A stretch of DNA of 41,428 nucleotides from Planctomycetia bacterium (GTDB lineage: Bacteria > Planctomycetota > Phycisphaerae > Phycisphaerales > SM1A02). The position numbers were made by a program, and so were the translations under genes. The first letter of the stretch is position 1; every line of letters starts with the position of its first letter. This document shows, piece by piece, positions 29,891 to 34,638 of the stretch. The notes beneath the pieces were generated by a model that had not been told where the DNA came from, made no database searches, and saw only the letters and a list, made by a program, of their open reading frames with translations. Location of the stretch: contig SYGP01000040.1 in the NCBI GenBank assembly GCA_005799495.1, positions 1 through 41,428 of the forward strand, in the 5' to 3' direction.

Positions 29891-31459
29891 TCACTCCCAC
29901 TCGATCGTGGCTGGTGGCTTGCTGCTGATGTCGTACACGACGCGGTTCACACCCTTGACCTCGTTGATCAGGCGGCTTGAAATGGTGGCAAGCACCTCGG
30001 CCGGGAGCCGCGCCCAATCCGCAGTCATGAAGTCTTGCGTCGTGACGGCACGAACGGCCACAACCGAGTCATACGTGCGCCCATCCCCCATCACTCCGAC
30101 GCTCTTCACGGGCAAGAGCACGGCAAACACCTGATCGGTCTGTCGGTAGAGCCCCGCCGAAACGATCTCCTCCAGCAAGATCTCGTCGCAGTCGCGCAGC
30201 ACACGCAGTTGCTCTTCGCTGACTGGTCCGAGGCAACGGACGGCCAGCCCTGGTCCCGGGAATGGATGGCGCCACACGATCGAATCGGGCAGTCCAAGCA
30301 CCTCGCCAAGCTTGCGAACCTCGTCCTTGAAAAGGCTGCGAAGCGGCTCGACAAGTTCAAAGCCCAAATCCTCGGGCAATCCGCCCACATTGTGATGGAG
30401 CTTGATGTTCGCGGCGGTACCCGCATGCCCGTGCCCGCTCTCGATGACATCGGGGTCGAGCGTGCCTTGCGCGAGAAAACGCACATCGCCGTCGATGGAC
30501 TTTGCTGCCCGCTGAAAGACATCGATGAAGCGGTGACCAATGAGTCGCCGCTTCTGCTGCGGTTCCGCAACTCCAGCGAGATCGCCAAGAAAGTCCTTGC
30601 TCGCATCGATCACCCGGAGATCGATGTCGAAGTGCCCGCGGAATGTCGACTCCACCAACTCGCGCTCACCCTTGCGCAGCAGGCCGTTGTCGACAAAGAT
30701 GCAGCAGAGTTGTTTGCCGATTGCACGCGCAAGCAGTGCCGCAACCACCGAACTATCGACCCCGCCCGAGAGGCCGCACAACACTCGTGACGATCCCACG
30801 CGCGCACGAATGCGCCGGCACTCGGTGTCCACAAAGTCAGACATGCGCCACGATCCAGCGCATCCACACTCCTGGAACAGGAAGTTGCGAATGATGTCCA
30901 TGCCATGCGGCGTGTGCGTCACCTCCGGATGGAACTGCACGCCGAAGATGCGCCGCGCGCGATCCTCCACCGCCGCAAACGGACAGGTCGGCGTCGAGGC
31001 GATGGTTTGAAATCCACTCGGCAGCGACAGCACCTGATCGCCGTGGCTCATCCAGACAGTCGCGCGATCTGGAACGCCGTGCAAGAGCCCGGAGGGCGCG
31101 TTCAACTGCAACTGCGCCCGGCCGTACTCGCGGTGAGGCGCACCCTCCACCCGCCCGCCAAGCAGCTGCGCCGTCAGTTGCATTCCATAGCAAATGCCAA
31201 GGACTGGAACGCCCAGATCGAAAACGCGCGCATCGCAGCGCGGCGCGCCATCGTCCGACACACTCGATGGTCCTCCCGAGAGAATGATCCCCCGCGGCTT
31301 GTGTCCCTGAATCTCATCCAGAGACGCGTCGGGACGCATCAACAGACTGAAGACCCCCGCTTCACGCACCCGCCGCGCAATCAACTGCGCATACTGACTC
31401 CCGAAATCGAGGATCAGGATGGTCTCGGCTTGCGGAGTATTGAGGTCTGCGGTCTTCAT
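29891..31459 (-). CDS. guaA: GMP synthase (glutamine-hydrolysing)
   Basis: Converts XMP to GMP in the cytoplasm. In the 522-aa protein the N-terminal class I amidotransferase has [18 protein letters not shown], the nucleophile in GICYGMQ, and His/Glu in VQFHPEV. The ATP-pyrophosphatase domain has the P-loop LSGGVDSS. The dimerisation domain has [14 protein letters not shown] and ends in the typical [11 protein letters not shown]. Full length, no irregularity. A TACGAT element lies about 27 bases upstream of the ATG. Confidence 0.97.
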
Positions 31460-31518: not shown

Positions 31519-31956
31519 ATGGTTCTTTGGCGCGTCCGGCGTGACCCTTCCGAATGGACAATCTCCTGCGGCGTGATGTGCGCCAGCGCGATGCTGTGTG
31601 CACTCATCCTGACGGCGTGCGCACCGAGCGCCACCGAAGGAGGATTCTCGAACCCTGCACCTGGCGCGCGCATCTACGCGATCGAAGACGCGGTCAAACT
31701 CAATCGTCGCGATCAGATCCCGCAGATCGTCGAGTGTCTCTGCTCCGACGACGACCTGCTCCGGTACATGGCCATCGGGGCGCTCCAGCGCATGACGGGA
31801 CAGGACCTTGGGTATCAGTTCGACGACTCCGAACCGCTCCGCTTCGCTGCGTACCAGCGTTGGCGCCAGTGGACCATCGATCAGCATCTTGCCCCACCCG
31901 AACAGGCGTATGCATCGACGATTTATCCGCCAGCCCGCCAGCGCCCCTCGTGGTGA
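31519..31956 (+). CDS. Small lipoprotein with HEAT-like segment, hypothetical
   Basis: A 145-aa protein. The N-terminal region is long and basic (MVLWRVRRDPSE). A hydrophobic stretch (VMCASAMLCALILTAC) then ends in the lipobox LTAC at about residues 31-34, predicting a lipid-anchored envelope protein. The mature part has a helical pair with HEAT-like spacing (IPQIVECLCSDDDLLRYMAIGALQRMTGQDLGY) and an RFAAYQRWRQW helix. No catalytic residues are evident. Its stop overlaps the next start as GTGA, so it is translated with the RsbW-like gene. Confidence 0.75.
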   Translation: MVLWRVRRDPSEWTISCGVMCASAMLCALILTACAPSATEGGFSNPAPGARIYAIEDAVKLNRRDQIPQIVECLCSDDDLLRYMAIGALQRMTGQDLGYQFDDSEPLRFAAYQRWRQWTIDQHLAPPEQAYASTIYPPARQRPSW

Positions 31957-32435
31957 GCATGGAACGCGAGCCCGAGATCAGCATCCGAATCTTCAGCGAT
32001 CCACACCTGCTTGCGACCGTGCGGGGTGCGATCGATGGTCTTGCGAAGTGCGTCGGCTTCCATGACAAGTCACGCGCACTGCTCACGCTCGCCATCGATG
32101 AGGCACTGACCAATGTCATCCGCCATGGCTATGGCAACCAGACGCAGGGCATGATCTGGCTGCACCTGTGGCGCTCCGCCGATCCGCGCGGACTCCGCAT
32201 CATCATCGAGGATCTCGGCAAGACCACCGATCCATCCAAGATCAAGGGGCGCGAGCTCGAAGATGTGCGTCCAGGTGGCCTGGGGGTTCACATCATCAAG
32301 GAAACGATGAACGAGTCCGTTTGGGAGCAGCGCCCCTCTGGCGGAATGCGTTTGACGCTGGCCAAGTGGCTCAACGCAGAGGAACTCGCCGCCTCGTATC
32401 CTGCCCCGTCGAACCCAGAGCAATCCAACTCATGA
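31953..32435 (+). CDS. RsbW-like anti-sigma-factor serine kinase (HATPase_c_2)
   Basis: A GHKL-fold ATPase of the kind that phosphorylates STAS antagonists and in partner-switching systems binds a sigma factor or other target. The start is GTG 31953, overlapping the lipoprotein stop; ATG 31959 is an alternative. Of about 160 residues, the N-box DEALTNVIRHGYGN is near 48-61, the G1 region is IIIEDLGKTTDP, and the G2 box is GGLGVHIIKETMNE. The end overlaps the STAS gene (ATGA). No sigma factor gene is nearby, so the target is unknown. Confidence 0.9.
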   Translation: MSMEREPEISIRIFSDPHLLATVRGAIDGLAKCVGFHDKSRALLTLAIDEALTNVIRHGYGNQTQGMIWLHLWRSADPRGLRIIIEDLGKTTDPSKIKGRELEDVRPGGLGVHIIKETMNESVWEQRPSGGMRLTLAKWLNAEELAASYPAPSNPEQSNS

Positions 32436-32773
32436 ACACACCTCTCGTCATCAAGAGCAGCATGGTCGAACAAACCACGGTTCTCGCGCCGCAAAGCGAT
32501 ATTGACATGGCGAGAGCGCCGTCGATGCGAGACGCGATCAAGAGTGCCTTGGAATCCAAGCCATCCAAACTGGTGATCGACCTTTCGCTGGTCGACTATG
32601 TCGACTCCTCTGGCATCGCCACGCTCGTGGAAACTCTCAAGTGGACGCGCGAGGCGAAGGTTGGGCTGGCGCTGGCCGGACTCCGGCCGCGCGTGAAAAC
32701 TCTCTTGGACATCACAAAGCTGACTGCCCTGTTCACAACACGCCCCACGGTGGAGGAGGCCTGCAAGGTCTGA
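32432..32773 (+). CDS. STAS-domain protein (anti-sigma-factor antagonist / MlaB-like)
   Basis: A 113-aa single-domain STAS protein. The phospho-acceptor loop is VDYVDSSGIATL, with the conserved DSSG at about 58-61; this Ser is the target of RsbW-type kinases. N-terminal strands (TTVLAPQSDIDMARAPSM) fit SpoIIAA/RsbV. Context allows two readings: an antagonist for the kinase just upstream, or an MlaB-like partner of the MlaE permease four bases downstream. Starts by ATGA overlap. Confidence 0.9.
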   Translation: MNTPLVIKSSMVEQTTVLAPQSDIDMARAPSMRDAIKSALESKPSKLVIDLSLVDYVDSSGIATLVETLKWTREAKVGLALAGLRPRVKTLLDITKLTALFTTRPTVEEACKV

Positions 32774-32777
32774 CACG

Positions 32778-33617
32778 ATGGCGGCCGAGACGACCCAAGT
32801 CAAGCCAGCGCTCCCCCTCCGTCTGATCGACTGGTACTGGACGGTCTGGTCGGATGTCTTCGCGCTCGTGGGTGCATGGTCCGCGCTGCTGCATCAGGTG
32901 GTCGTCTGGGTGATCCGCTCGCTCATTCAGCGGCGCGCACGCTTCGGCGGACAGGCTCTCGCGGAGCAGATCGTGCGAGTCGGAACACGATCGATTGCCA
33001 TCGTGCTTCTTGTGTCTGGCTGCATCGGCATCATCTTGGCGCTGCAAACCGCCCCGAGCCTCAGCGACTTTGGGCAAACGGACAAGGTGGCGAACCTGGT
33101 CGCTGTGGCAGTCACACGCGAACTCGGTCCGCTGATCGCGGCCATCGTCCTCACGGGATTCGCCGGCGCCTCGATTGCCGCGGAACTTGGAACCATGAAG
33201 GTGGGCGAGGAGATCGAAGCGCTCGAGGCAATGGCGCTGAACCCCATCCGATTCCTCGTGGTGCCCCGCGTGATTGCCACGGCAATCAGCCTCTTGGTTC
33301 TCTCGGTCTTCGCAGACATCTGCTCGGTCGTGATGGGAGGCGTGGTCGGCATTCTGGTGCTTGACATCCCCTATGAGACCTACAAGCTGAACACGATCAA
33401 TCAGCTGCGACCCGTCGACTTCAATACCGGCCTCATCAAGGCGCTGGTGTTCGGAACCCTGCTCGGTCTGATCGCCTGCTCCAATGGACTGCGAGTGACG
33501 GGCGGCGCTGCGGGCGTCGGACGGGCGACAACCAACACCGTGGTGCAGACCACTGTCGCCATCGTGATTTGCGACTTGCTCTTCTCGTCGCTCTTCTACA
33601 GCCTTGGGCTCAACTGA
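32778..33617 (+). CDS. MlaE-family ABC transporter permease
   Basis: Inner-membrane permease of lipid (phospholipid) transporters. The 279-aa protein has five or six hydrophobic segments. Family motifs are VAVAVTRELGPLIAAIVLTGFAGA, IAAELGTMKVGEEIEALEAM, NPIRFLVVPRVIA and a C-terminal GLRVTGGAAGVGRATTNTVV. The TRELGP and AELGTM motifs are those of MlaE/YrbE and the plastid TGD1. The matching ATPase (MlaF) and MCE protein (MlaD) are not in the window. The 3' end overlaps dprA on the other strand by 22 bp. Confidence 0.93.
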   Translation: MAAETTQVKPALPLRLIDWYWTVWSDVFALVGAWSALLHQVVVWVIRSLIQRRARFGGQALAEQIVRVGTRSIAIVLLVSGCIGIILALQTAPSLSDFGQTDKVANLVAVAVTRELGPLIAAIVLTGFAGASIAAELGTMKVGEEIEALEAMALNPIRFLVVPRVIATAISLLVLSVFADICSVVMGGVVGILVLDIPYETYKLNTINQLRPVDFNTGLIKALVFGTLLGLIACSNGLRVTGGAAGVGRATTNTVVQTTVAIVICDLLFSSLFYSLGLN

Positions 33618-34600
33618 CAATCCACGGCACGACGAGGCGGATCGAATCCGGCTGCCCGCAGTTGCTCCGCACCCACGATGCTTGAGGCGTGCTCGATGAG
33701 GCAGGCGATCGCGTCGTCGGGACTCTCGACAAGCACCGCCTGCATGGACTGGATCAACCGATGGCACCCTGCCGAACGCCCCGTGTGGACCGGTCCCGGC
33801 ACCGCCATGCAAGCCCGCCCGGTTTCAATCGCCAGTCCCGCTGTGATCGTCGCCCCTGATCGAGCTGCAGCCTCCACCACCAGTGTTGCGGCACTGAGAC
33901 CGGCAAGAATGCGGTTGCGGCTCGGGAATCGGTCGGGGGTTGCAGGCGCATCGACGGGGCACTCGCTGATCACTGCTCCACCACTCGCGACGATCTCATC
34001 CAGAAGCTCCCGGTGCTCGGGTGGATAGGGCTCCAAGAGGCCACCGCCGACCACCGCGACAGTCCGACCCTCTGCACGCAGCGCCCCGCGGTGGGCCTCG
34101 CCATCGATGCCGCGTGCCGCACCCGACACCACGGCAATGTCCGCTGCTGCAAAGGCTGCCGCAAAGCGCCCCGCCTGCTCGATGCCATACGCCGTCGCGC
34201 GCCGCGAACCAACGACCGCGACGGACCACGCGTCCTCCCGCTGCAGTGCACCGCGAATCCAGAGTGCCACTGGCGGATCGGAAGAGGCTGCGAGCATCGC
34301 TGGATACTCGTCGTCTTCGATGAGCACCAACCCTGCGCCGAGAGCGAGCATCTGATCTTGCTGCCGAAGCGGTTCACACCACTGCATGCGCTCTCGCAGT
34401 GTGTACGCACGAACGAGTTCGCATCCATCGGACTCTCCCAACAGTGCGTCGAGGTCCGTCCCCTCCGAGTGCACCAACCGCGCAAACGCCGTCACACCAC
34501 CACATCGTCGCACGGTCTGCCGCCACGATCGCGGGGCGCGGTCGAGCGCCTGCGCAACCTGAAGCACTTCAAGTGGAATCTCCCCCGCTCTCCGTGGCAT
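33596..34600 (-). CDS. dprA: DNA-processing protein DprA
   Basis: Single-strand DNA-binding protein that loads RecA during natural transformation. ATG 34600 (MPRRAGEIPL) gives 334 aa; GTG 34627 adds nine residues. The Rossmann-like core carries VVGSRRATAYG, SGAARGIDGEAHRGAL, GGGLLEPYPPEHRELLDEI, PSRNRILAGLSAATLVVEA and GRACMAVPGP. An N-terminal helical part (about residues 1-95) and a short C-terminal winged-helix-like region flank it. Suggests competence potential, but no com genes are in the window. It probably forms one transcript with the two genes upstream. Confidence 0.93.
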   Translation of the reverse strand: MPRRAGEIPLEVLQVAQALDRAPRSWRQTVRRCGGVTAFARLVHSEGTDLDALLGESDGCELVRAYTLRERMQWCEPLRQQDQMLALGAGLVLIEDDEYPAMLAASSDPPVALWIRGALQREDAWSVAVVGSRRATAYGIEQAGRFAAAFAAADIAVVSGAARGIDGEAHRGALRAEGRTVAVVGGGLLEPYPPEHRELLDEIVASGGAVISECPVDAPATPDRFPSRNRILAGLSAATLVVEAAARSGATITAGLAIETGRACMAVPGPVHTGRSAGCHRLIQSMQAVLVESPDDAIACLIEHASSIVGAEQLRAAGFDPPRRAVDCQLSPRL

Positions 34601-34638
34601 GCGCCGAACACTACTCCCCCGCCGCACCCATCAGCCGT

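Follow-up and report, generated by a model that had tools for sequence, protein, structure and literature searches.

Can a serine kinase of the partner-switching type serve a lipid transporter rather than a sigma factor? The question is raised by a window of 41,428 nucleotides from a Planctomycetia bacterium of the order Phycisphaerales (assembly GCA_005799495.1, contig SYGP01000040.1, positions 1 to 41,428 of the forward strand), which is the whole of one contig (C37) of a 2.36 Mb genome that is 97.8% complete. Four genes follow one another there, head to tail and all on the (+) strand, coding for a lipoprotein, a kinase, a STAS protein and a permease of the MlaE family. Whether the STAS subunit of Mla transporters is phosphorylated, and by what, is left as an open question in the available text of two papers on the Escherichia coli subunit MlaB (PMC5016091, PMC7367683). 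The answer that we favour, with a fair measure of doubt, is that the cassette supplies the regulatory half of a lipid ABC transporter of the Mla/MCE type that has a serine-kinase switch of its own, where phosphorylation would gate transport. It is very probable that the STAS protein and the kinase act on an Mla-type transporter; it is likely that the kinase phosphorylates the STAS protein; and it seems the better guess that the phosphorylation state would gate the ATPase MlaF. The features of the cassette are as follows.

31519..31956, + strand: lipoprotein carrying a signal peptide, lipobox Cys34 and a small helical repeat of HEAT type (open reading frame; weak HEAT_2 match; AlphaFold model)
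31953..32435, + strand: predicted serine kinase, RsbW/SpoIIAB-like, HATPase_c_2 (Pfam PF13581; PDB profile matches)
32100..32114, + strand: kinase N-box, with its Glu codon at 32100-32102 and its Asn codon at 32112-32114 (columns E45 and N49, unvarying in alignment A1)
32274..32285, + strand: G2 box of the kinase, GGLG, ATP site (invariant in alignment A1)
32432..32773, + strand: SpoIIAA/RsbV-like STAS protein, proposed MlaB-like subunit (PF01740; TIGR00377; AlphaFold model)
32606..32608, + strand: STAS Ser59, first Ser of DSSG, proposed phosphoacceptor (alignment to MDSSG of 1th8_B)
32778..33617, + strand: MlaE-family ABC lipid permease (PF02405)

The original prediction had read this stretch as lipoprotein, kinase, STAS and MlaE genes; all four are found where it had placed them, and Pfam supports the kinase, the STAS protein and MlaE. 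Its picture of 4-base junctions stands in two places out of three. The kinase and STAS genes overlap by ATGA (32432-32435) and 4 bases separate the STAS gene from mlaE; the GTGA overlap between lipoprotein and kinase, by contrast, holds only with a kinase start at GTG 31953, and the start is probably ATG 31959, because a Met is kept there in 12 of the 12 relatives checked, which leaves a 2-base gap instead.

The kinase matches HATPase_c_2 (PF13581) at 2.1e-19, with 70.3 bits against a cut-off of 27.4, and HATPase_c at 1.7e-6. Its profile (A1, an alignment of 21 rows) finds RsbW in the PDB at 1.5e-18 (6m36), and anti-sigma F factor at about 5e-11 (1tid/1th8). Since it scores below the NCBIfam equivalog cut-offs, both for RsbW (55.7 against 145 and 44.4 against 155.05) and for anti-sigma F (29.9 against 135), it is not classed as a true RsbW or SpoIIAB. 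The STAS protein matches PF01740 at 2.2e-22 and the TIGR00377 superfamily with 76.6 bits (cut-off 53.45). Its profile retrieves TM1442, anti-sigma F antagonist and anti-sigma B antagonist first, MlaB (6xbd, 6xgy) and Ttg2E (6ic4) being weaker PDB matches, and its AlphaFold model (pLDDT 90.9), with a C-terminal helix (107-112) like that of SpoIIAA, resembles TM1442 (1vc1, Z 20.6) and 1th8_B (Z 18.4), MlaB (6xgy) coming as a weaker Foldseek match (rank 46, TM 0.61). As for the permease, it matches PF02405 at 5.1e-67, with 226 bits against a cut-off of 22.5, and falls under the NCBIfam cut-offs (TIGR00056, 200 against 212.2; perm_MlaE_1, 158.9 against 315), so that by these scores it is a member of the Pfam MlaE family outside the NCBIfam MlaE subfamily proper.

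How constant is this association? In a sample of 151 genomes of the order, searched in the same draw with the window MlaE and with kinase profile A1, an MlaE match of some kind is present in all 151 and the kinase, at E<=1e-30, in 102. A search of relatives for a conserved kinase-STAS-MlaE order had been proposed as a check, and the pair proves to be conserved beside mlaE: comparison of listed coordinates places the kinase on the same strand and less than 1.5 kb upstream of an MlaE of the window's clade in 96 of the 102 kinase-bearing genomes, with a median gap of 508 bases, room for one STAS gene. Among the exceptions, G042, G101 and G148 have lipoprotein-kinase-STAS on one contig and MlaE on another, G083 has its MlaE 4.4 kb from the kinase, beyond the STAS gene, and G027 and G047 have a kinase without adjoining STAS or MlaE. 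Sixty MlaE loci were picked across families; 7 that belonged to the other MlaE clade were left out, and the remaining 53, with the window, make 54 window-type loci. The kinase is present in 40, each time with STAS and MlaE next to it (36 also with the lipoprotein), and 14 have no kinase beside MlaE. Finally, of the best 80 kinase loci among 537 relatives in a GTDB-based collection, 70 show the order lipoprotein-kinase-STAS-MlaE, a recurrence that makes the arrangement more than chance.

Such constancy might reflect no more than neighbourhood inertia, the genes staying together without functional reason. The region is generally stable among these close relatives: guaA, which in the window lies upstream and divergent (29891-31459), flanks 74 of the best 80 kinase loci, and dprA, downstream and convergent (33596-34627), flanks 24. 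What happens at greater distance makes this explanation highly improbable. A set of 294 genomes spread over the phylum was searched with the kinase; 125 match at E<=1e-18, and 47 loci outside the order were read, the 27 that head the list, leaving out the similarly ranked G343 and G317, and 20 lower-scoring ones picked by hand, the genes being named with our own profiles, built from proteins of the window and of its genome. MlaE is in the same gene group in 23 of the top 27; at G292 the contig ends after the STAS gene. Neither guaA nor dprA was detected in 41 stretches (27 places) outside the order, so that the gene core is held by more than a stable neighbourhood: kinase-STAS-MlaE remains there, and MlaF and MlaD are added to it. 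A contiguous kinase-STAS-MlaE-MlaF-MlaD run occurs in 12 genomes of 10 families (L248, L250, L251, L252, L255, L256, L258, L262, L263, L269, L271 and L280), as well as at L169, with the lipoprotein detected in 8 of these 13 complete sets; in L248 and L251 the names HATPase, STAS, MlaE and ABC ATPase are borne out by Pfam. In one family (f64) six loci have kinase-STAS-MlaE-MlaD with no MlaF between. An aside on provenance: the record titles assign L169 to Actinomycetota, and L141, L143 and L148 to Verrucomicrobia; these are planctomycete-like cassettes, possibly in mislabelled metagenome-assembled genomes, and L169 groups with a genome of the same class in the MlaE tree.

In G219 and G253 the order has changed and the membership is kept, which again speaks against inertia. 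The genes there run MlaE-MlaD-(gap)-MlaF-STAS-kinase, and the kinase frame runs on into GAF and SpoIIE phosphatase domains (SpoIIE at 6.6e-46 and 2.9e-49, HATPase_c_2 at 6.1e-22 and 7.4e-19). Such HATPase-GAF-SpoIIE proteins, each encoded directly after a STAS gene, are listed here.

L245:7978-9699: HATPase-GAF-SpoIIE protein after STAS, also after MlaF
L246:6788-8539: HATPase-GAF-SpoIIE protein after STAS, also after MlaF
L247:4401-6206: HATPase-GAF-SpoIIE protein after STAS

A predicted kinase and its opposing phosphatase within one polypeptide, beside MlaF and STAS, would make a reversible switch on the transporter; this is the most direct genomic hint of one.

A further line of evidence comes from places where the kinase is missing. 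One kinase-free sub-clade has lipoprotein-STAS-MlaE-MlaF-MlaD in seven loci (L094-L096, L098-L100, L202) and STAS-MlaE-MlaF in L097; kinase-free lipoprotein-STAS-MlaE is found in G008, G135, G011, G106, G076, G088 and G115, and STAS-MlaE in G144. In two genomes, G047 and G253, STAS and MlaE are fused in one protein (L303:856-2139, L307:1477-2604), STAS at the front, followed by MlaF and MlaD. Judged by its neighbours, the STAS protein goes with the transporter whether or not the kinase is present, and its genomic setting is that of an MlaB: it adjoins MlaE here, and stands with MlaE-MlaF-MlaD in relatives. The suggestion that it serves the permease beside a partner-switch kinase is thus strongly supported by conserved order, complete sets, kinase-free STAS-MlaE-MlaF-MlaD runs and fusions taken together.

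If the kinase were at work, its residues and those of its presumed substrate should be in place. They are. Among 132 distinct kinases whose genes adjoin STAS and Mla genes, neither the Glu and Asn of the N-box nor the three Gly of the G2 box vary in any of the 132, and the Asp of the G1 box is present in 129. On the STAS side, Ser59 lines up with the leading Ser of the 1th8_B motif MDSSG. The corresponding residue is Ala in 1tid_B (MDASG), which we take to be the S58A form that blocks SpoIIAA phosphorylation. Of 131 distinct kinase- and Mla-linked STAS proteins, 123 have Ser and 8 have Thr at the acceptor position, the motif being DSSG in 121, and the hydroxyl is kept even where the rest of the motif has been altered to NTPG, GTPG or ATPG. 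It is missing only in the two STAS-MlaE fusions, where the position is Gly (CDGAG, CDGSG) and where the 3.6 kb surrounding each fusion showed no kinase. A side observation on this motif is that L141, L143 and L148 have DSCG.

To be sure, a number of facts weigh against a kinase switch dedicated to the transporter, and they have to be set beside the rest. To begin with the loci, 9 of the best 80 kinase loci are without MlaE, 2 of them cut by a contig end and 7 uncut, with about 4 kb read downstream: kinase-STAS in L141, L143 and L148, lipoprotein-kinase-STAS in L157 and L177, and a kinase alone in L174 and L186, on contigs of G027 and G047. In the last two genomes the kinase persists beside guaA with neither STAS nor MlaE next to it (L204, L205); elsewhere in its genome G027 carries a STAS-MlaE-MlaF-MlaD run, and G047 its STAS-MlaE fusion with MlaF and MlaD. 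In G050 (L203:3772-5116) and in L192 the kinase is followed directly by MlaE, without STAS between. Beyond the order, G314 has MlaF-STAS-kinase with no MlaE in the 11 kb read, and no Mla gene is found at G199 (a 3.6 kb contig) or at G268 (10 kb read), where a HATPase-GAF-SpoIIE protein (SpoIIE at 2.1e-46) nevertheless follows STAS. The MlaD genes outside the order, named with our own profile, are not all backed by PF02470: L248 scores 24.8 against a cut-off of 25.1, L251 has no match, and L245 is over the cut-off. As the loci outside the order were found via a kinase search, they cannot show how often MlaE exists there without the kinase; G205, for instance, has a second MlaE-MlaF-MlaD run (L298) around which 3.6 kb of sequence showed neither STAS nor kinase. 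Nor is a phosphatase at hand in the cassette itself, the four SpoIIE matches of this genome being all on other contigs. As for the STAS protein, it reaches 29.4 bits with the NCBIfam MlaB model (cut-off 90) and has a C-terminal helix, unlike MlaB; while its function may be that of MlaB, it is therefore not classed as one.

A rival reading is an ordinary anti-sigma/anti-anti-sigma pair, acting in trans on a sigma factor or another target, with mlaE sharing the operon through a common envelope stress response. The sequences are indeed nearest to RsbW/SpoIIAB and SpoIIAA/RsbV, the seven uncut loci just mentioned count in its favour, and HATPase genes with an adjoining STAS gene and no MlaE in the gene group are common further away: of the 20 lower-scoring loci of the phylum 3 have MlaE and 17 do not (in one of these, L282, MlaE lies 3 kb away on the opposite strand), 14 of the 17 having an adjoining STAS gene and 3 a HATPase without STAS. 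Still, we consider such a pair unlikely here. No sigma factor was found by Pfam among the four genes of the window; the STAS gene stays with MlaE(FD) in loci that lack the kinase; uninterrupted sets that include MlaF and MlaD recur in 10 families; and the STAS gene sits between kinase and MlaE or, in G219 and G253, between MlaF and kinase. Moreover, the 24 distinct STAS proteins that come with a kinase and no near Mla gene (contig-end cases included) differ in part at the motif, with 10 SSAG and 8 DSSG. The genome of the window has a further HATPase gene paired with a STAS gene, on contig C13 (L009:1477-2320), whose acceptor motif reads SSAA; a sigma-type role was considered for this pair, and the gene upstream of it looks secretin-like from its sequence.

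A second objection bears on chemistry. With the kinase lost, one would expect the Ser to be lost as well; this coevolution was looked for and not seen, for all 16 distinct STAS proteins that are linked to Mla genes but have no adjoining kinase carry Ser, so that the test is neutral, and sequence alone cannot show that phosphorylation is the reason for the conservation of Ser. The residues next to it do drift in these kinase-free proteins (SSPG, DSAG, DSSA, DSGA). In E. coli, according to the available text, the T52A form of MlaB abolishes ATPase activity and leaves assembly intact (PMC5016091). Taken with the 16 kinase-free Ser, this means that the hydroxyl has another role. On a second rival reading the HATPase is not a working kinase at all, and would sequester or chaperone the STAS protein, the Ser being kept for MlaF catalysis like T52 of MlaB. 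We hold this to be rather less likely still than the sigma-type pair: the catalytic Glu and Asn and the G2-box glycines are invariant in all 132 kinases, and within Mla gene runs a HATPase of this kind is joined to a SpoIIE phosphatase.

If the favoured reading, a kinase switch on an Mla-type transporter, is to hold in this organism, the rest of the transporter must be somewhere. The original prediction had expected MlaF and MlaD elsewhere, and so it is. Three MlaD/MCE matches were found, one of them directly after an MlaF-like ATPase on contig C26, where the two genes make an adjacent pair; the other two, in tandem on contig C11 (L008:5914-8433), are MCE-domain proteins beside which no such ATPase or permease was seen in the 16 kb read. 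An intact mlaFED-B set elsewhere, with its own STAS protein, had been named as an outcome that would speak against the proposal. The genome has eight STAS matches and two HATPase_c_2 matches over the cut-off, and no STAS match is on contig C26; the MlaF-MlaD pair is thus without an adjoining STAS gene, which answers this objection. The pairing is nevertheless ambiguous. There are two MlaE genes in the genome, that of the window and a second, an orphan, on C26 (L006:7040-7882), and this second MlaE, not the window MlaE, could partner MlaF-MlaD. The second MlaE falls in a separate clade of the MlaE tree, and no MlaF, MlaD or STAS gene was detected beside members of that clade in the loci of 7 relatives (L105-L111). 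In favour of the window MlaE, G033 and G012, whose genomes are each one contig, contain no MlaE besides the kinase-linked one, and the nine best BLAST matches of the genome's own MlaF, among the MlaF proteins of the loci compared, all come from kinase gene runs (46-48% identity). MlaA (PF05494) and MlaC (PF04333) have no match in this 97.8% complete genome, the E. coli and Caulobacter controls being positive.

How would the switch work? The STAS protein would do the job of MlaB: unphosphorylated, it would sit on the MlaF ATPase, allowing assembly of MlaFED and hydrolysis of ATP. The HATPase kinase encoded upstream would bind it and phosphorylate Ser59, and the phosphate would release the STAS protein from MlaF, or block it there, bringing transport down. 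A SpoIIE-type phosphatase, of which the genome has four candidates and which is fused to the kinase in the Mla runs of two relatives, would reverse the reaction. In short, this partner switch would act on MlaF where others act on a sigma factor. The genes, their motifs and order, the uninterrupted sets and the fusions are what the sequences show; phosphorylation, the competition of kinase and MlaF for the STAS protein, the sign of the effect, the role of the lipoprotein and the C26 MlaF-MlaD pair as partner are what we infer. In its fullest form the account has MlaF competing with a dedicated kinase for the STAS protein, phosphorylation meaning transport off and a SpoIIE-type phosphatase transport on, in a system old in Planctomycetota, lost several times, and condensed in one lineage to a single kinase-sensor-phosphatase behind MlaF and STAS; to this whole we give a slight preference.

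The age of the association was considered with a quick MlaE tree of 96 rows, rooted on the second MlaE, in which long branches meet near the root. Its deeper branches are kinase-linked rows, save one group of three without STAS, it being understood that the rows from outside the order were all found through kinase searches, hence are kinase-linked by selection. The tree has 6 changes between rows with the kinase, split cases included, and STAS-bearing rows without it. We tentatively conclude that the association with the kinase is old in Planctomycetota, with several losses.

The HEAT_2 match of the lipoprotein in Pfam is weak (7.7e-4, under the curated cut-off); its AlphaFold model has five helices forming a small helical repeat, with a mean pLDDT of 79 and poor tails, and a Foldseek search of the PDB gave no match at E<=0.001, with weak, mostly helical-repeat hits. 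The lipobox Cys34 is invariant across the 31 rows of alignment A4, the window row counted. The annotated ATG at 31519 may be too early, and a start near 31579 would suit the signal peptide.

What would this add to present knowledge? The statement that MlaB has no dedicated kinase agrees with what has been published: none is known according to the available text of PMC7367683, and we found no report of one in the open-licence PMC literature. In the accessible parts of these works, MlaB is required for the association of MlaF (PMC7367683, PMC5016091); its T52E form weakens MlaF binding, with phosphoregulation left open (PMC7367683); phosphorylation is put forward as a hypothesis (PMC5016091), the authors of both knowing of no experimental evidence for it (PMC7367683, PMC5016091). 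The word 'kinase' appears 0 times in the available main text of a survey of Mla components in 1083 genomes (PMC10665443), and 'phosphorylation' 0 times in PMC7790496; the accessible part of PMC10094684 does not mention phosphorylation of MlaB either. A partner-switch kinase and an Mla transporter joined in a dedicated gene run was not found in the open-licence PMC literature. Now one phylum offers candidate kinases beside Mla genes, and one lineage a fused kinase-phosphatase, so that the question becomes one for purified proteins. If the proposal is true, partner switching reaches beyond transcription factors to an ABC lipid transporter, which it controls directly, and to envelope lipid traffic.

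Both halves of the system, partner switch and Mla transporter, are of kinds already known, and it is their joining as a dedicated gene run that appears new with respect to the literature searched. With MlaFEDB of E. coli the present system shares an MlaE with a separate STAS protein, a Ser or Thr at the phosphosite, and MlaF-MlaD partner genes. It differs in that E. coli MlaB has no known kinase and is a minimal STAS protein without C-terminal helix, as described in the available text of PMC7367683, and in that MlaA and MlaC have no Pfam match here and a HEAT-type lipoprotein is added. Permeases with STAS fused to MlaE, described in the available part of PMC5016091 and seen here in G047 and G253, also tie STAS physically to MlaE, yet both fusions that we saw have Gly at the acceptor and no kinase detected in 3.6 kb. 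With the SpoIIAB/SpoIIAA and RsbW/RsbV switches of Bacillus subtilis, the likeness is in the HATPase_c_2 kinase, the STAS protein with an MDSSG-type acceptor and the SpoIIE-type phosphatases in the genome; the difference is that no sigma factor is among the four genes and that the STAS protein is tied to a lipid ABC transporter. The fused protein of G219 and G253, for its part, recalls SypE of Vibrio fischeri, which combines kinase and phosphatase and targets a serine of the STAS protein SypA; according to the accessible text (PMC4517449), SypE is a response regulator and its output is control of biofilm, whereas the planctomycete proteins are of the HATPase-GAF-SpoIIE form and stand beside an ABC transporter.

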